Shown: piece after piece, positions 19,581 to 42,396 of the stretch
Numbering within the stretch: position 1 is the first letter of the stretch
How the letters are laid out: each line of letters starts with the position of its first letter
Notes under the pieces: generated by a model
Told to the model about the DNA's origin: nothing
What the model saw: the letters and a program-made list of their open reading frames with translations, nothing else
Databases searched by the model: none
Source of the DNA: Mesorhizobium sp.
Lineage (GTDB): Bacteria > Pseudomonadota > Alphaproteobacteria > Rhizobiales > Rhizobiaceae
Length of the DNA stretch: 64,000 nucleotides
Assembly (NCBI RefSeq): GCF_024710845.1
Contig: NZ_JANJTZ010000056.1
Location: 186,001 to 250,000, forward strand
Reading direction: 5' to 3'
Made by a program: the position numbers and the translations under genes

Positions 19581-20537
19581 TCAGAACCCGACCATGTCGC
19601 CGCCTTTCAGCCCCAGCAGTTGCCGTGCCTCCGCGGGGGTTGCGATCTCGTGCCCGAGTTCGGTGAGGATGGTTCTGATTTTGCGCACCTGTTCGGCATT
19701 TGACGAGGCGAGCCTGCCGCGGCCGATATGGAGCGAGTCCTCGAGACCCACGCGCACCGATCCGCCGAGCATCGCCGCCTGCGTGGCGAAAGGCATCTGG
19801 AAGCGCCCGGCCGCCAGTACCGACCAGCGGTAGTCGGAGCCGAACAGCTTGTCTGCCTTCTGCTTCATGAAGGTCAGGTTCTCCATATCCGGCCCAATTC
19901 CACCGAGGATGCCGAAGATCATCTGGACGAAGAAGGGTGGCTTCACGAGGCCGCGGTCGACGAAATGGGCGAGGTTGTAGAGATGCCCCACGTCGTAGCA
20001 CTCGTGCTCGAAGCGTGTGCCGTGCTCCTGGCCGAGCATTTTCAGGATGCGCTCGATGTCGCGGAACGTGTTGCGGAAGATGAAGTCGTCGGTACCGCGC
20101 AGGTAGGGCTCCTCCCATTCGTGCTTCCACGAGGCATAGCGGTCGGCCAGCGGATAGATGCCGAAGTTCATCGACCCCATATTCAGCGAGCACATTTCCG
20201 GCTTCGCCAGTAGCGGCGCGGCGAGACGCTGCTCGACCGTCATGTTGAGCCCGCCGCCGGTGGTGACATTGATGACCGCGTCGGTGGCCTGCTTGATGCG
20301 CGGCAGGAACTGCATGAAGACGGTCGGGTCGGGTGTCGGCCGGCCATCCTTCGGGTCGCGTGCGTGAAGGTGCAGGATCGCCGCCCCCGCTTCCGCTGCC
20401 TCGATCGACTGGCGGGCGATCTCGTCAGGCGTGATCGGCAGCGCATCAGACATGGTCGGCGTATGAATGCCGCCGGTGACGGCGCAGGTGATGATGACTT
20501 TCTTGGACAGGTCGGCCATTTCTCTCTCGATTTTCAT
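19581..20537 (-). CDS. BKACE family protein (DUF849, beta-keto acid cleavage enzyme)
   Basis: VIITCAVTGGIHTPTMSDALPITPDEIARQSIEAAEAGAAILHLHARDPKDGRPTPD. Confidence 0.93.
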   Translation of the reverse strand: MKIEREMADLSKKVIITCAVTGGIHTPTMSDALPITPDEIARQSIEAAEAGAAILHLHARDPKDGRPTPDPTVFMQFLPRIKQATDAVINVTTGGGLNMTVEQRLAAPLLAKPEMCSLNMGSMNFGIYPLADRYASWKHEWEEPYLRGTDDFIFRNTFRDIERILKMLGQEHGTRFEHECYDVGHLYNLAHFVDRGLVKPPFFVQMIFGILGGIGPDMENLTFMKQKADKLFGSDYRWSVLAAGRFQMPFATQAAMLGGSVRVGLEDSLHIGRGRLASSNAEQVRKIRTILTELGHEIATPAEARQLLGLKGGDMVGF

Positions 20538-21544
20538 TCGGGGAAGACGACACGCCGGCGCACGGGCACCAAGGTGATGCCGGTACGCTGGACGAAATAG
20601 CCCCACAGGCCCTTCGGCGCCCGCAGCATGACGAGGATGGCCACGGCGCCCAACACGATCAGATAGGTCGTGCCGAGATCGGCGAGCGTTTCGCGCAGCA
20701 GGAAAAACAGGATGGTACCTATGATCGGACCTTCGATGGTGCCGATGCCGCCGATGACCGCGATGAAAATGACGTAGGCGGTCCAGTCGTTGACGCTGAA
20801 CGCGGCGTCCGGCGAAATGCGCAGCTTCTGGAGAAAAATGAACGCGCCGGTCATCGACGTGAAGCCCGCCACGGCGGTGTAGACGACGAGCTTGGTGCGC
20901 CAGATGTCGATGCCGAGGCTTTCGGATGCAACCTCGCTGTCGCGCAGCGCGGTCAGTGCCAGACCCATGCGCGAGCGGAGCAGTAGGACGACGAAGGCGA
21001 TCGATGCGACAGCGATGGTCAGCGCAGTCCAGTAGATCGCCGCCTCGCGCAATCCGCGGTCAGAGGCGATGTTGACGACGATTGCCGCAGGTAGGCTGGT
21101 GCCCGAGCCGCCGCCGAGCGAAGAAACCTGCGCGAAGGACAAACGGAAGACCTCCGCCAGAACCCAGGTGCCAATGGCGAAGTAGGCGCCCTGCAACCGA
21201 AAAAGCAGCGGCGCGATGGGCAGGGCAATGATGGCGCCGGCGACGCCGGCAATCGCGATGGCCGCAAGGGGGTGGATGCCGAGAAACATGGCAAGCGCGA
21301 ACAGCATGTAGCCGCCGAAGCCGACATAGGCTTGCTGCCCGACCGAGACGAGGCCGGCATAGCCGGCCATCAGGTTCCACAGAGTCGCCAGCGCGACGAA
21401 GGAATAGACCTCGCCTAGCAGCCGCACATTGGCGCGACCAGCCCACCACGGCGCGGCAATGAGGCCGGCCAGCAGCAGGAGCGCGACGATCGCGGTGACG
21501 CGGCTCAGTCGCGTCGAGCGCTGGATCGCGAAGGATACGGCCAT
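20534..21544 (-). CDS. livM: Branched-chain ABC transporter permease LivM
   Basis: LMAGYAGLVSVGQQAYVGFGGYM; IGGIGTIEGPIIGT; ORF track start at 22417 is an extension. Confidence 0.92.
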   Translation of the reverse strand: MAVSFAIQRSTRLSRVTAIVALLLLAGLIAAPWWAGRANVRLLGEVYSFVALATLWNLMAGYAGLVSVGQQAYVGFGGYMLFALAMFLGIHPLAAIAIAGVAGAIIALPIAPLLFRLQGAYFAIGTWVLAEVFRLSFAQVSSLGGGSGTSLPAAIVVNIASDRGLREAAIYWTALTIAVASIAFVVLLLRSRMGLALTALRDSEVASESLGIDIWRTKLVVYTAVAGFTSMTGAFIFLQKLRISPDAAFSVNDWTAYVIFIAVIGGIGTIEGPIIGTILFFLLRETLADLGTTYLIVLGAVAILVMLRAPKGLWGYFVQRTGITLVPVRRRVVFPE

Positions 21545-25273: not shown

Positions 25274-25930
25274 TTAGAATGTCGCGTCGCCGGTCACCTG
25301 GCGGTAGAGCACCGGCAGGAGGTCGGCCATGTATCCCATTTCCTCGATGGCGTGCTTGTGGAGCCCGGCGCAGAACTCGTCGTTCAGTGCCTCCTTGCGA
25401 ATGTGCGCACTCTGGTCCTCCGGCAAGGGCAGGCCGCCCGGCATGCGCACGTCGCCGAACCAGAAGCGCGTGCGCATCTCGCAGCCATAGTCCGTATTGC
25501 GCACGAAGTGGCACATGTAGCCGAGGCTCACCGGGTTGTCCCGCGCCCCCGGAAAGGCGCAGACGGCGATACCGTCGACGGCGTCGTACCGAGTCGGATC
25601 GAAGAATTCGTGGGGGTCGCGGAAACTGATCCTCAGCCGGTGAACGGGACCGGAGCCCCCGAGATACTCTTCGACCAGGTGATGTGCGCCGACATAGTTG
25701 CCCCCGACGCGCCCTTCCCAGTCGCTGGAGACGTGATCGCGGGGATGCCAGAGCTTGTACTGGTCGGTTCCGCCCAGCCAGCCGAACCACCAGTGCACCA
25801 TCTTCGCCCGGCAATGCGGCATGCGCGTCAGCGCGGCGATCGTTACATGGCCGTCATCGTAACGGACGATCCCGGACTCGAACGGCAGGTAGCCGGGTTT
25901 CAGCAAATCATTGCGGTCTTCGAAGCGCAT
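25274..25930 (-). CDS. DAPG hydrolase (PhlG)-like protein, copy 1
   Basis: AKMVHWWFGWLGGTDQYKLWHPRDHVSSDWEG, HKHAIEEMGYMADLLPVLYR. Confidence 0.8.
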   Translation of the reverse strand: MRFEDRNDLLKPGYLPFESGIVRYDDGHVTIAALTRMPHCRAKMVHWWFGWLGGTDQYKLWHPRDHVSSDWEGRVGGNYVGAHHLVEEYLGGSGPVHRLRISFRDPHEFFDPTRYDAVDGIAVCAFPGARDNPVSLGYMCHFVRNTDYGCEMRTRFWFGDVRMPGGLPLPEDQSAHIRKEALNDEFCAGLHKHAIEEMGYMADLLPVLYRQVTGDATF

Positions 25931-25939
25931 TCCGCTCTC

Positions 25940-26602
25940 CTAGAATGTCCTGTCGCCCGTAACCTGCCGGTAGAGGATCGGCAGGAACTCGGCGAGATAG
26001 CCCATCTCCTCGGTCGCATGCTGGTGCAGGCGCCTGGCGAGTTCGGACGTCACACGTTGGCCGCGCAATTCGGCGGCCCTTTCCGGCGTGAATGGCGCAG
26101 CCGGGTCCCGGCTCTCCAGGTGTCCGAGAAAGAAGCGCGAGCGCATCTCGCAGCCGAACGAAGTGTTACGCACGAAATGAATCGTACGACTATGATTCAC
26201 CGGCACGTCAAGCGCACCGGTTCGAGCGCAGATCGCGACGCCGTCGAACGCCGCGTAGGCCGTCGCGTCGAGGAATTCGGCAGGATCGCAGAAATTGATC
26301 CTGAGCTTGAACACCGGCCCGTCGTCGCCGCCGAGATATTCGTGGACCAGATGACTGGCGCCGATGTAGCTGCCCGGCGTGCGGTCTTCCCAGTCGCTGA
26401 ACAGGTGATCGGTCGGATGCCAGATCTTGTACTGGTCGGTGCCGCCCAACCAGCCGAACCACCACGCAATCATCTTCGCGCGGCTGCCCGGCATGCGTGT
26501 CAGCGCGCACACGGTACGGAAGCCGTCATCGAAATCGATGACGCCTGATTCGACCGGGAGGTATCCCGGCCGAAACAGCTCGTTGGCGTTTTCGAAGCGC
26601 AT
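25940..26602 (-). CDS. DAPG hydrolase (PhlG)-like protein, copy 2
   Basis: AKMIAWWFGWLGGTDQYKIWHPTDHLFSDWED, HQHATEEMGYLAEFLPILYR; tandem paralog of 25274-25930. Confidence 0.8.
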   Translation of the reverse strand: MRFENANELFRPGYLPVESGVIDFDDGFRTVCALTRMPGSRAKMIAWWFGWLGGTDQYKIWHPTDHLFSDWEDRTPGSYIGASHLVHEYLGGDDGPVFKLRINFCDPAEFLDATAYAAFDGVAICARTGALDVPVNHSRTIHFVRNTSFGCEMRSRFFLGHLESRDPAAPFTPERAAELRGQRVTSELARRLHQHATEEMGYLAEFLPILYRQVTGDRTF

Positions 26603-26612
26603 CGGCCGGTCC

Positions 26613-27896
26613 TCAGAGTGCACTCAGACCCCCGGAAGTCGGTATCGGCTGGTCCGTGGGATTGGCGCGGATCTTCAGGTCGAAACGGTCGCCGGACTTG
26701 ATCCACTGGCCGCCGACCATGGCCGTCTTGGTGACATTCTTGATCGGCGATCCCTGCCATTTGACGCGGCCGGAGAGCGTCTCGTGGTCGGTCGCCATGA
26801 TGGATTCGATGACAGCGTCGCGATCCGTCGCGTCACCGGCGCGCGACAGGACGTCGAGGGCGATCTCGAACAGCGCGTGCTTGGATCCGATGAGCTGGAT
26901 CCACTGCCGGCCGGTCTCCCTTTCCCACGCATCGCACAGGCTCGGCGCCGTCTCGCCGGTCAGCGCCGACTTGAACGGGAAATCGCGATGCCAGCTGACC
27001 TCCGCCGAAAGACCGCTGCCGATGGCGCCGATCGTCTCCAGGGTCTTGGGGAGCAGAAGGGTCTTGCCGATCGACGCGACTTTCGGCTTGAAGCCCTGCT
27101 GGGCGGCCTGGGTCCAGAATGCGAAGAATTCCGGCGGGACCATCGTCGCGACGACAATGTCGACGCCGGCCTTCTTGAACGCGGTGATCTGCGCCGTGAA
27201 GTCGTCCGCCATCGGCGTGTAGCGCCCGGCATCGACGCCCTCGTATCCGGCCTTGGCGAGCGCGGCCGGAAAGCCGAACTTCTCGTTGCCCCAGGCATTT
27301 CCGTCGGCATCGTTGGCGAACATCATGCCGACCTTCCGGTTGGTCTCGATCGTTCCCCACAGCGCCATGTAGGCGGCGATGACGTCCTCGAGTCCGAAGG
27401 CGAACAGGTAGGTCCAGTCGAAGCCCTTGTCGGGCGTGCTGTTGCGGCCCATCACGAAGGGCTGCCAGGGGCAGGAATTGGCGACCATCGGCACGCCGTT
27501 GACCTCGGCCTGGTCGGCGACGGGGTTGACCGTGTCGGGGCCGCCAGCGGCGATGAGCAGGTCGACATTGTCGTCAAGGATAAGCTGGCTGGCCACCTCG
27601 GAGGCGCGGTTGGCGCTCGATTGGCTGTCCTTGATGACGAACTCCACCGGACGGGTTTCGCCCTTCACGGATATGCCCGCCGCGATTTGCGTCTCGAAGC
27701 GCTTCAGGATGAACGCGTCGGGCTCACCAAAGAACGCAAGAGGTCCGGTCTGGGGTGTCACCAGGCCGATGCGGACGGGTGTGCTTGCCGCGAACGACTT
27801 GCTGACCCGCAACACGGCAGGCGCCGCGAGCGCGGCGGATCCCGCCAGGAACAGGCGCCGTGAGATTCTAGGCGTTGTTCTCTTCAAGGTGTGCAT
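26613..27896 (-). CDS. Branched-chain-type ABC substrate-binding protein, paralog of 23919-25220
   Basis: RRLFLAGSAALAAPAVL leader; DTVNPVADQAEVNG; PFKSALTGETA. Confidence 0.9.
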   Translation of the reverse strand: MHTLKRTTPRISRRLFLAGSAALAAPAVLRVSKSFAASTPVRIGLVTPQTGPLAFFGEPDAFILKRFETQIAAGISVKGETRPVEFVIKDSQSSANRASEVASQLILDDNVDLLIAAGGPDTVNPVADQAEVNGVPMVANSCPWQPFVMGRNSTPDKGFDWTYLFAFGLEDVIAAYMALWGTIETNRKVGMMFANDADGNAWGNEKFGFPAALAKAGYEGVDAGRYTPMADDFTAQITAFKKAGVDIVVATMVPPEFFAFWTQAAQQGFKPKVASIGKTLLLPKTLETIGAIGSGLSAEVSWHRDFPFKSALTGETAPSLCDAWERETGRQWIQLIGSKHALFEIALDVLSRAGDATDRDAVIESIMATDHETLSGRVKWQGSPIKNVTKTAMVGGQWIKSGDRFDLKIRANPTDQPIPTSGGLSAL

Positions 27897-29606: not shown

Positions 29607-29953
29607 ACGACTGCTCCTGGCGGATGGGGGATTACTACGAGCATGATGCAGACCCGATTGGAGCGATTGACGATCTCACGCACCTCGCCCGGCGCTATCG
29701 TGCAGGAATCGAACGGGCCGAGCACGGTCTCCACGCCGTCGACGATTACGGCCATTTCTCCGTCGAGGACGACGTAGACCTTCTCGAAGGGCGTGGAGTC
29801 CGGCCCGGCGCCGCCGCCGGGAAGGAACTGCGACAGGCCAACCCACTGGTTCGTCGGCCCGCCCTTCTCGAAGCCCTGAAGCCTCAGACCGACCATGCCG
29901 CGATGGTTGGGGGCGTCATAGGGCTTCGCGTCGGAGAAGCGTCGGGCGAGCAT
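29603..29953 (-). CDS. Cupin domain protein
   Basis: VGLSQFLPGGGAGPDSTPFEKVYVVLDGEMAVIVDG. Confidence 0.85.
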   Translation of the reverse strand: MLARRFSDAKPYDAPNHRGMVGLRLQGFEKGGPTNQWVGLSQFLPGGGAGPDSTPFEKVYVVLDGEMAVIVDGVETVLGPFDSCTIAPGEVREIVNRSNRVCIMLVVIPHPPGAVV

Positions 29954-30792
29954 CAGAATGCCTCGCCTTTTTCGATACGGTACGACTGATTGCGGTCAAT
30001 CATGGCGACCAGACGGATGATGCAGCCGTCGCCGCGGTCCCAGTTGATCGGGAAAAACGCGAAGGTGCAGCGCTTGCCCGTGACCGCGTCGAGGTCGCCG
30101 CCGACGTTCTCGATGCCCAGAATGCCTGCCTTGAAGATCTTCTGGTGCACCGGCTCCCACTCGGGGAAAGCGTCCTTCCAGTCGACGCCGCCGGACCATT
30201 CTTTGTATTCTTCCGCCAGGTGCGGAAGCAGCGGCCCGTTGCGCTGCGGACCGATCGCAGTGGCGAGCGGATGGTCGTTCGCCTGCGTATCGTGGCCGAC
30301 GACCTTGACGCCCTTCTCGATCATCCAGTCGGCGGCCGAAGGCACGAAGCCCGGGCAATAGGCGAAGTAGTCCCCGTCCTCGTACACCTTGTGCCAGCCG
30401 GTGTTGATGATCAGCACGTCGCCCTTGCGGATCGCCTTGCCGCAGGCCCGTTCGAGATCGTCGCCGGTGATCTGTTCCCACTTCTTCTTCGGGAGCGAGA
30501 CCACGATGCCGGAGCCGAAGAAGTGCGGCAACGGCACCTCGTCGATGAAGGGCGTGCCCTGCACGACATGCGCCGGCGCATCGATGTGGGTCGTGACGTG
30601 CATCGTCGTCGTGATCGTCTGCGACAGCACACCGGACTTGGCCATATAGTGCATGCGCTCAATACGGACGTCGCGGAAATATGGCCAGTTCGGGCACTGG
30701 TACCCGAAGCGATGGGACAGATTGTAGAACTCGATACCCATCGGGTTGTCGAGGTTTGCTTCGAATTCGATGCCGCGCACAGTGATAGTCAT
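29953..30792 (-). CDS. Cyclase family protein (kynurenine formamidase-like metal hydrolase)
   Basis: THIDAPAHV motif, GDVLIINTGWHK, GIENVGGDLDAVTG. Confidence 0.87.
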   Translation of the reverse strand: MTITVRGIEFEANLDNPMGIEFYNLSHRFGYQCPNWPYFRDVRIERMHYMAKSGVLSQTITTTMHVTTHIDAPAHVVQGTPFIDEVPLPHFFGSGIVVSLPKKKWEQITGDDLERACGKAIRKGDVLIINTGWHKVYEDGDYFAYCPGFVPSAADWMIEKGVKVVGHDTQANDHPLATAIGPQRNGPLLPHLAEEYKEWSGGVDWKDAFPEWEPVHQKIFKAGILGIENVGGDLDAVTGKRCTFAFFPINWDRGDGCIIRLVAMIDRNQSYRIEKGEAF

Positions 30793-30886
30793 ACAGATGC
30801 TCCTCGGCGCCCGGTCGAGCGCCGCCAGTTGATCTTGGATGGTGTTGGGGCTCCTCCCTGAGCCTGTATGTTAATACGGTAGGGAT

Positions 30887-30921
30887 GAATTGCATTGCGG
30901 TCAATGTGTACCGTATCGTGG
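30887..30921. repeat. 35-bp promoter repeat, copy A (candidate IclR operator)
   Basis: GAATTGCATTGCGGTCAATGTGTACCGTATCGTGG; overlaps the ATACGGTA/TACCGTAT inverted repeat (30874-30881, 30909-30916). Confidence 0.65.
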
Positions 30922-31174
30922 TCATGTCCTAGGCGCGACCTAGCTGGCCTGCACTCGATTGCAACTGCGCTGCGCCTACGGCGCTAAGAGAACTGCAGCC
31001 CGGGAAAGCGTGCGTGCCGCCCGTTGCTGAATGTGGAGCCAAAGTCGAACCCGGCGCACGACATATGGCGGTTCGCAGCCGGGCACCGATCGATGGCCAG
31101 TGGCGCGCCCCGCCTCAGGGGTGTGGCGTCACTGTGAAACTCCTCCCGAAGGTCTCTTGCGAATCTGCACAGCT

Positions 31175-31209
31175 GAATTGTATTGTGGTCAATATGTACC
31201 GCATCGTAG
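31175..31209. repeat. 35-bp promoter repeat, copy B
   Basis: GAATTGTATTGTGGTCAATATGTACCGCATCGTAG; 30/35 identical to copy A, direct orientation. Confidence 0.65.
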
Positions 31210-31239
31210 GCGGACTCTCGGAAGTCGGGACTGCAGGAT

Positions 31240-32001
31240 ATGGTTGAGATGACACGCTCCGGCCTGAAAGTTCCGGACCAAAGCGACCGAACCGGCGTTC
31301 AGGTGATTGCGCGAGCGGCGGCGGTGCTGCGAGCCCTCAAGGGCTCGTCGGGCATGAGCCTTGGCCAGATTGCGTCGCGCGTCGAACTGCCCCGCTCGAC
31401 GGTCCAGCGCATCGTCGGCGCCCTCCAGGCCGAACGCCTGGTCATCGCGACAAGCGGCGGCGCAGGCATTCGGCTCGGGCCGGAGCTTCATGCTTTGTCG
31501 GAGGCGGCGCGCTTCAACGTTGTCGATCTCATGCGGCCGATGCTGCTGCGTCTGTCGGCGCAGACCGAGGAGACCGTCGACCTGTCGGTGCTGCGCGACG
31601 GCAAGATGGTCTTCATCGACCAGGTGCCGGGCTCGCACCGCCTGCGCGCCATTTCCGCCGTCGGTGAGGTCTTTCCGTTGGCCACCACAGCCAATGGGCG
31701 GGCCTGCCTGTCGTTGCTCGGCGACGAAGAGGCTATGCGGTTGCTGAAGGCCGAGGGACTGGCCTCCACCGATGGGGTCATGGCGAAGCTCGCCGATGTG
31801 CGGCGCCTCGGATTGGCATTCGACGAAGACGAACACACGCCCGGGATATCCGCCGTTGGCCTCGGGTTCATCGACCCGCGCGGCGATACCTATGCCGTGT
31901 CGGTGCCGGTCCCTACGAGCCGCTTCGCGCAGCAGCGCGACAGGGTATCCGCCGCGCTCAGGCTGCTCCGGGAACCGATCAACGAGATCATCGGAAGGTG
32001 A
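31240..32001 (+). CDS. IclR family transcriptional regulator
   Basis: MSLGQIASRVELPRSTVQRIVGALQAERLV HTH; IclR effector-domain features. Confidence 0.92.
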   Translation: MVEMTRSGLKVPDQSDRTGVQVIARAAAVLRALKGSSGMSLGQIASRVELPRSTVQRIVGALQAERLVIATSGGAGIRLGPELHALSEAARFNVVDLMRPMLLRLSAQTEETVDLSVLRDGKMVFIDQVPGSHRLRAISAVGEVFPLATTANGRACLSLLGDEEAMRLLKAEGLASTDGVMAKLADVRRLGLAFDEDEHTPGISAVGLGFIDPRGDTYAVSVPVPTSRFAQQRDRVSAALRLLREPINEIIGR

Positions 32002-40951: not shown

Positions 40952-41497
40952 TCAGAGGTGAGCGTCGGTGGCGGCAGGATCATCTTCTGGTTCCGGCGGA
41001 CCATTGCCGCCGCGCACGAGCGCGGCGAAATCGGCTAGGAACACAACCAGTTGGACGACAGCTGCGAGGATCATCATCACGCTCGCCGCCGTCCACCAGG
41101 GCCATACTGCCCATGCCAGCACCCACGTGCGGTCGCCGTTCGTTCGCAAGTTGGCGGCATAGGGTAGGAATTGCCAGGCAACGAGGATGATGAAAACCAG
41201 CGTAACGAGGCTCGCAAAGGCGGTCAGTGCACTTTCTGCCCGCCCCCCGCCCGCGAGGGATCCGAACACCTCTACAGAGATGTTCTGCTTCATTGCGAGA
41301 TTGGCAGGGATGCATGCTGAAATCACAACGGCCATGACGACCGCGCTGACATCGTTCACACCCTGGATGGGCGTTCCGGCCAACCAGCGCAGGAGTACAT
41401 CGAGTGAGGTCATGACCGCGAGGCCCAGCAAGCCGGCGAAGCCGAGCAGGGCAAGTGTCTGGGATGCGGCACGGAGGCGCGCTTCAGCCAATTTCAA
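40952..41497 (-). CDS. dctQ: TRAP transporter small permease DctQ (probable TTG start)
   Basis: LDVLLRWLAGTPIQGVNDVSAVVMAVVISACIP; GGGAGGAAC 5' to TTG at 41497. Confidence 0.85.
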   Translation of the reverse strand: MKLAEARLRAASQTLALLGFAGLLGLAVMTSLDVLLRWLAGTPIQGVNDVSAVVMAVVISACIPANLAMKQNISVEVFGSLAGGGRAESALTAFASLVTLVFIILVAWQFLPYAANLRTNGDRTWVLAWAVWPWWTAASVMMILAAVVQLVVFLADFAALVRGGNGPPEPEDDPAATDAHL

Positions 41498-41562
41498 CGA
41501 TGTTCCTCCCGTTGCTCCGAAAGGAGCGATGTGAACTTGACGTCTGGAGGGTGGATTGCAAT

Positions 41563-42396
41563 GTGGGTCCCCAGATTGTCCATCACGCGAACAGGGGGTG
41601 GCCTGCCATTTCGAACTTCGGATCAGTGCGTTCACTGCAACGCGGTCTGGCAATTCTCCAGGCCGTGAACAGGCATAATGGAATGAAGGCTGCGGATGTC
41701 GCCAAGCTGGCTGGGGTCCCACGCCCGACCGCCTATAGGCTGCTCGAGACCCTAGAGGGCCTTGGTTTCGTAGTCCGCACTCAATCCGGGGACATGTGGC
41801 GCCCCACCTTGCAGACCAAATCCTTGAGCTCGGGCTTCAGGGACAAGGACTGGGTTGCGCAGATCGCCGTGCCGCAGATGATGAAGCTAGGCCGGAAGCT
41901 GTTATGGCCTCTTGACCTGGTCACCTTCCGCGACTTCCGGATGGAGATTCGAGAGTCCACACATAACATCAGTCCCTTTTCAGTCGACCATGGCATGGTG
42001 GGCCGAGGTCTGCCCGTTCTCGACACAGCGGGCGGCCGGGCTTACCTGGCCTACCTGCCAGATGCCGAGAGGGAACAGGTCTTGCAGGCTCTGCGGACGG
42101 AACTCGGCGAGGAGAAGGTCGGTTTCCACGAGGATGGTCCGCTGGAATTCATCCTTGATCGAACGCGCCAGATTGGTCTCGGCTATCGGATCCGGGGCTT
42201 CAACGAACGTACCATGAGTATCTCCGCGCCGGTGATGGCCGAACATCGCCCCGTCGCCTGCCTGACCATGATCTGGATCGGATCCGCGTTGAGGTTTGAA
42301 GACGCGGTGCGCACTCACGGCGACGCGCTGAAGGCCACCGCACGTTCGATTGGCGATGAACTCGCCAGGTTGACCCTTGAGAACAACGACCTGTAG
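41563..42396 (+). CDS. IclR family transcriptional regulator (start uncertain)
   Basis: VRSLQRGLAILQAVNRHNGMKAADVAKLAGVPRPTAYRLLETLEGLGFV. Confidence 0.88.
   Translation: MGPQIVHHANRGWPAISNFGSVRSLQRGLAILQAVNRHNGMKAADVAKLAGVPRPTAYRLLETLEGLGFVVRTQSGDMWRPTLQTKSLSSGFRDKDWVAQIAVPQMMKLGRKLLWPLDLVTFRDFRMEIRESTHNISPFSVDHGMVGRGLPVLDTAGGRAYLAYLPDAEREQVLQALRTELGEEKVGFHEDGPLEFILDRTRQIGLGYRIRGFNERTMSISAPVMAEHRPVACLTMIWIGSALRFEDAVRTHGDALKATARSIGDELARLTLENNDL

Follow-up and report, generated by a model that had tools for sequence, protein, structure and literature searches.

Regulators of the IclR family form tetramers, and a comparative survey of their binding sites described tandem sites 18-22 nt apart for 94 orthologous groups, an arrangement read as tetramer binding (Suvorova and Gelfand 2021; PMC8222616). 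In the group-1 operators of that survey, a 17-bp palindrome near GKTYCRYW3-4RYGRAMC is repeated in tandem at 18-22 nt, and a catabolic operon lies beside the regulator gene. The same survey tabulates nine DNA-contact positions of TtgV from Pseudomonas putida (PDB 2xrn, 2xro), which binds tandem sites as a tetramer. BhcR of Paracoccus denitrificans is encoded divergently from a catabolic cluster, with two promoters. A further point of reference is the phloroglucinol pathway, which was shown biochemically in Clostridium scatologenes and was also noted in Mesorhizobium loti, Bradyrhizobium, and marine alphaproteobacteria (PMC10470551). The C. scatologenes cluster encodes a short-chain reductase, a cyclase-family cyclohydrolase, a 3-hydroxyacyl-CoA-type dehydrogenase, and TAL/BKACE. 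That paper mentions a regulator for the cluster but does not speak of IclR, and among the papers searched we found none that names an IclR regulator for this pathway.

Features of these systems recur in a 64-kb stretch of DNA from Mesorhizobium sp., the whole of which is referred to here as the window (Table 1). An iclR gene diverges from a 13-gene operon (30792 to 19581, minus strand), and a similar element, A or B, lies in front of each. We consider it very likely that A and B are two-dimer operators at which this IclR protein represses the operon, and probably its own gene, until it is released by a ligand, and that B originated as a duplicate of the A region. The operator is of a known kind, of which it is a well-conserved example, with one operator here per divergent promoter.

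Table 1. Features of the iclR/cyclase region and of the adjacent operon; promoter hexamers and gene functions are predictions, and scores are those of the held-out position weight matrix (PWM)
Feature	Position	Strand	Remarks
BKACE gene, 3,5-dioxohexanoate:acetyl-CoA acetone transferase (TAL)	19581..20606	-	last operon gene; NF053538 539.7 bits, cut-off 430
Two adjacent DAPG-hydrolase (PhlG) family genes	25274-25930, 25940-26623	-	in only 8 of 71 related loci
PF04199 cyclase gene, probably dihydrophloroglucinol cyclohydrolase	29953..30792	-	first operon gene; 80-96% identical in divergent loci; PMC10470551
CTCCTCCC (mRNA GGGAGGAG)	30851..30858	+	loop of leader hairpin H1; 36 nt from operator A
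box0, degenerate third box	30866..30882	+	21 bp from A1; -3.1; right half is ATACGGTA
Predicted -10 TACCGT	30876..30881	-	17-bp spacing; inside box0
Operator A, box A1 GAATTGCATTGCGGTCA	30887..30903	+	15.6 bits, rank 1 of 63984 positions
Predicted -35 TTGACC of the cyclase operon	30899..30904	-	at edge of box A1
Operator A, box A2 GTACCGTATCGTGGTCA	30908..30924	+	21 bp from A1; 15.3 bits, rank 2
CTCCTCCC, second copy	31140..31147	+	35 nt from operator B
Operator B, box B1 GAATTGTATTGTGGTCA	31175..31191	+	13.1, rank 5
Operator B, box B2 GTACCGCATCGTAGGCG	31196..31212	+	21 bp from B1; 8.2, rank 9
iclR, IclR-family regulator	31240..32001	+	TtgV-like recognition helix LPRSTVQRI; PF01614, PF09339; TtgV best PDB match

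A predicted phloroglucinol operon

Apart from the genes listed in Table 1, the operon contains genes for an SDR, a 3HCDH-type dehydrogenase, a cupin, and a branched-chain-type ABC transporter. The cyclase, SDR reductase, and 3HCDH are encoded together with TAL, the gene set expected of a phloroglucinol operon and also present in C. scatologenes, whereas the transporter, the cupin, the two PhlG-like hydrolases, and the IclR regulator are additions of the window. Among 63 related loci with the cyclase, the SDR was found in 62, the 3HCDH in 62, and TAL within reach in 53. The operon is predicted to encode the reductive pathway for phloroglucinol together with PhlG-like hydrolases, its substrate being deduced from this gene content, so that phloroglucinol or an intermediate of the pathway is the likely ligand of the regulator. 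The PhlG-family pair may be an accessory that feeds acylphloroglucinols or phloretin into the pathway.

Two copies of one element in the genome

The 35-mers at 30887-30921 (copy A) and 31175-31209 (copy B) agree at 30 of 35 positions and all five differences are transitions, exactly as described in the initial annotation. Copy A is found upstream of the cyclase gene, 95 bp from its ATG (30792, minus strand), and the iclR ATG (31240) follows 30 bp after the end of copy B. The similarity is far beyond chance: when the 447-bp intergenic region was shuffled 1000 times with its dinucleotide composition preserved, the highest ungapped self-match of any 35-mer reached 24/35. A seed-based repeat search missed the pair, as it starts from exact matches of 9 bases and the copies share none of that length. 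The genome scan that had been proposed along with the initial annotation was carried out with a degenerate 35-mer (up to three mismatches) and returned copies A and B only in the 5.36-Mb genome, with no match in the control; a looser paired pattern gave no third copy elsewhere in that genome. The element is therefore not a dispersed repeat, and a mobile element was likewise ruled out, given two copies in 5.36 Mb instead of occurrences in many unrelated places.

A 17-bp palindromic box on a 21-bp lattice

Comparison with other genomes shows that the natural unit is not the 35-mer but a 17-bp palindromic box (consensus GTACCGCATTGCGGTAC) repeated in tandem at 21 bp, which would make each 35-mer a two-dimer operator. 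IclR orthologues were gathered from sampled relatives and from a collection of 84,980 species genomes, and a first PWM, seeded with the four window boxes, identified 239 sites in 79 intergenic regions, as compared with 5 in shuffled ones. The dominant spacing between neighboring boxes was 21 bp (94 adjacent pairs), followed by 23 bp (14 pairs). The divergent iclR-cyclase pair is kept across Rhizobiales and Rhodobacterales, and together with the box lattice it was found in about 75 alphaproteobacterial loci, the cyclase being mostly 80-96% and IclR about 50-83% identical.

The number of boxes differs among these loci. In many roseobacters there are four boxes, with spacings of 21-23-21, and most close relatives (L113, L114, L116, and L035) have three at 21-21, with two clear boxes in L005. 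The weak box0 of the window is clear in L113 (10.0) and L114 (13.6), in the same 21-bp register. The perfect inverted repeat reported in the initial annotation is present, with arms ATACGGTA (30874-30881) and TACCGTAT (30909-30916), but it is not a separate structure: on the lattice its arms are half-sites of two different boxes, box0 and A2. The four differences between the boxes of A and B all keep purine or pyrimidine, and three of them fall at Y/R-degenerate motif positions. The close relatives examined, with an intergenic region of about 150-190 bp, have one operator, whereas the window has two. Wide two-operator layouts were also seen in L115 and L117, and the distance between operators is 288 bp in the window, 125 bp in L115, and 44 bp in many roseobacters.

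Association with the cyclase operon

A second, held-out PWM was trained on 71 loci, leaving out the window, its close relatives, and long-spacer loci. It ranked boxes A1, A2, B1, and B2 at positions 1, 2, 5, and 9 among 63,984 window positions; the best 21-bp pairs in the 64 kb were A1+A2 (30.9) and B1+B2 (21.3), with box0+A1 third at 12.5. Of 23 non-orthologous iclR loci, only L029 had a comparable pair (23.4). Located at L029:2279-2316 beside a distant IclR gene (29% identity), it perhaps belongs to another regulator of the same motif class. Within the window, a second IclR gene (41455-42396, plus strand) is divergent from TRAP transporter genes and has an IclR-like box, GGATTGCAATGTGGGTC (41553-41569), near its start; this box scored 14.0 bits with the held-out PWM, rank 3 in the window.

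Where the cyclase is separated from the IclR homologue, the box pair stays upstream of the cyclase in L095 (30.6), L112 (23.6), and L084 (15.6), and in L050 and L057 a pair is found upstream of both genes. This pattern indicates an element that goes with the cyclase operon and, more loosely, with this group of IclR proteins. No box was found upstream of the IclR homologues of L086, L097, L103, L107, and L125 (about 55% identity, cyclase not adjacent), so that the box is not used by every close homologue. A single-box search of the genome (up to two mismatches) gave 29 matches versus 26 in the reversed control, and a wider regulon can therefore not be claimed.

The predicted binding protein

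The iclR product contains both family domains above the Pfam cut-offs (HTH_IclR PF09339, 39.2 bits, cut-off 22; IclR_C PF01614, 107.6 bits, cut-off 24), and its closest solved structure is TtgV (E 9e-35). The nine tabulated DNA-contact residues of TtgV (Gln15, Val16, Arg19, Pro46, Arg47, Ser48, Thr49, Gln51, and Arg52) are all identical in IclR (Q21, V22, R25, P51, R52, S53, T54, Q56, and R57) and invariant in six orthologues. TtgV differs in that it controls efflux pumps; in a comparison made at the protein level, its tetramer on tandem sites may serve as a model for the 21-bp pair. The consensus GTACCGCATTGCGGTAC fits the group-1 palindrome at 15 of 17 positions, the exceptions being A/T at positions 3 and 15, where the window motif reads GTA...TAC and group 1 reads GTT...AAC. 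The 21 bp between box centers in A, in B, and in the 94 adjacent pairs lies within the group-1 range of 18-22 nt. In contrast to group-1 operators, there is here a lattice of three or four boxes, and the operator of the window is duplicated. The best NCBIfam match of IclR is BhcR (NF045644), but its 113 bits are far below the equivalog cut-off of 350, and the pathway is also a different one. No relatives of IclR were found among viral contigs. We infer from these data that IclR (31240-32001) is the protein that binds A and B.

Predicted promoters, leader RNA, and probable history of the duplication

On the operon strand, 66 of 73 loci carry the hexamer TTGAC where a box ends, and a -10-like hexamer lies 16-18 bp away; in nearly all loci displayed the spacing is 17 bp, and the -10 types are TACCGT or TATCAT. 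A strict sigma-70 scan found no promoter in the iclR/cyclase region, the predicted -35 and -10 scoring below its threshold. Box A1 covers the predicted -35 and most of the spacer, which is a repressor position. At operator B the TTGAC hexamer is kept and the leftward -10 slot reads TGCAGA, so that B should no longer drive the operon. Since CTCCTCCC is kept near B and the leftward -10 is lost, B appears to be a duplicate operator that now serves iclR.

The second CTCCTCCC is probably a trace of a duplicated unit longer than the 35-mer. The 28-nt segments that separate CTCCTCCC from the operator resemble each other in A and B no better than shuffled sequences do (p 0.13), while the operator has kept 86% identity; the flanks outside the stretch from CTCCTCCC to the operator are not alike (p 0.26 and 0.67), and the unit can thus not be extended. 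Counted by eye, each copy has about 4 differences from the single L113 operator and A has 5 from B, so that the duplication is not recent. Both operator copies look constrained.

In the leader of the cyclase gene (30804-30870, minus strand), two stem-loops, H1 and H2, recur in related loci. H1 (GGCUC AGGGAG GAGCC, loop with GGGAGG) lies just past the predicted transcription start and was found with 26 different stems in 45 of 54 leaders; H2 immediately precedes the Shine-Dalgarno sequence. A global-pair alignment of 36 leaders gave a fold of -15.1, as compared with -0.8 +/- 1.2 for column shuffles, whereas no consensus pairs were obtained with a MAFFT alignment. Rfam had no match in 30600-31400.

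Proposed mechanism and alternative explanations

In the mechanism that we favor, each operator would hold a pair of IclR dimers on one face of the DNA, making up a tetramer as in TtgV, since box centers 21 bp apart are separated by two helical turns. Operator A would overlap the promoter of the leftward catabolic operon at its -35 and spacer, and operator B lies directly upstream of iclR. Without inducer, IclR would occlude the operon promoter and probably its own, and a phloroglucinol-pathway ligand would free it from the operators. B would have been born by duplication of the A region and kept as the iclR-side operator, whereas its leftward -10 and leader decayed. The low scores of box0 and B2 are weak points of this model. 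The proposal in the initial annotation that IclR controls both directions agrees with the comparative evidence for duplicated sites, one per divergent promoter; the looping that it also envisaged did not hold up, as discussed below.

Repression is not certain, because IclR proteins can also activate: BhcR, an IclR protein whose gene adjoins a divergent catabolic cluster, is needed for expression (PMC11323563). By analogy with what was proposed for BhcR, IclR may bind A and B to activate the operon in response to a ligand and to repress iclR, which would suit the poor -10 of the operon (TACCGT); the position of box A1 and the nearly invariant TTGAC -35 hexamer argue against it, and we see this alternative as possible but rather unlikely. 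More doubtful is a scheme with two layers of control, in which oligomers above the tetramer would occupy a lattice of three or four 21-bp-phased boxes and the conserved two-hairpin 5' leader, with GGGAGG in its first loop, would act after initiation. That an IclR tetramer bridges both operators into a repression loop is quite improbable. Tetramer formation (PMC8222616) and the two operators of several loci are compatible with such a loop, but two dimer sites are already available within each operator, 288 bp correspond to 27.4 turns at 10.5 bp per turn, operators lie anywhere from 44 to 288 bp apart, and only one is present in close relatives.

It is slightly more improbable still that the boxes are the sites of another regulator, with IclR a mere neighbor. 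The homologues without a box upstream would be in line with this, but the palindrome class, the 21-bp tandem spacing, the position, and the co-conservation with this IclR group point to IclR, and there is no further copy in the genome. Finally, a dispersed repeat, the end of a mobile element, or a functionless chance duplication has practically nothing left to recommend it. As would be the case for an insertion, the 253 bp between the copies (30922-31174) had no match in 41 genomes or in the fetched loci, and none convincing elsewhere in the window. However, there are only two copies in the genome, the operator was preserved next to a diverged 28-nt segment, and conservation across genera already refutes a functionless repeat. 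Repression by IclR from two-dimer operators is the reading that we retain.

Significance

This analysis predicts the regulator, the operator, and the likely effector class for a widespread alphaproteobacterial phloroglucinol pathway, and the two divergent promoters would form a compact pair for biosensor work. The locus also appears to be a clear case of an operator that was duplicated to give one for each divergent promoter, with single-operator relatives at hand for comparison.
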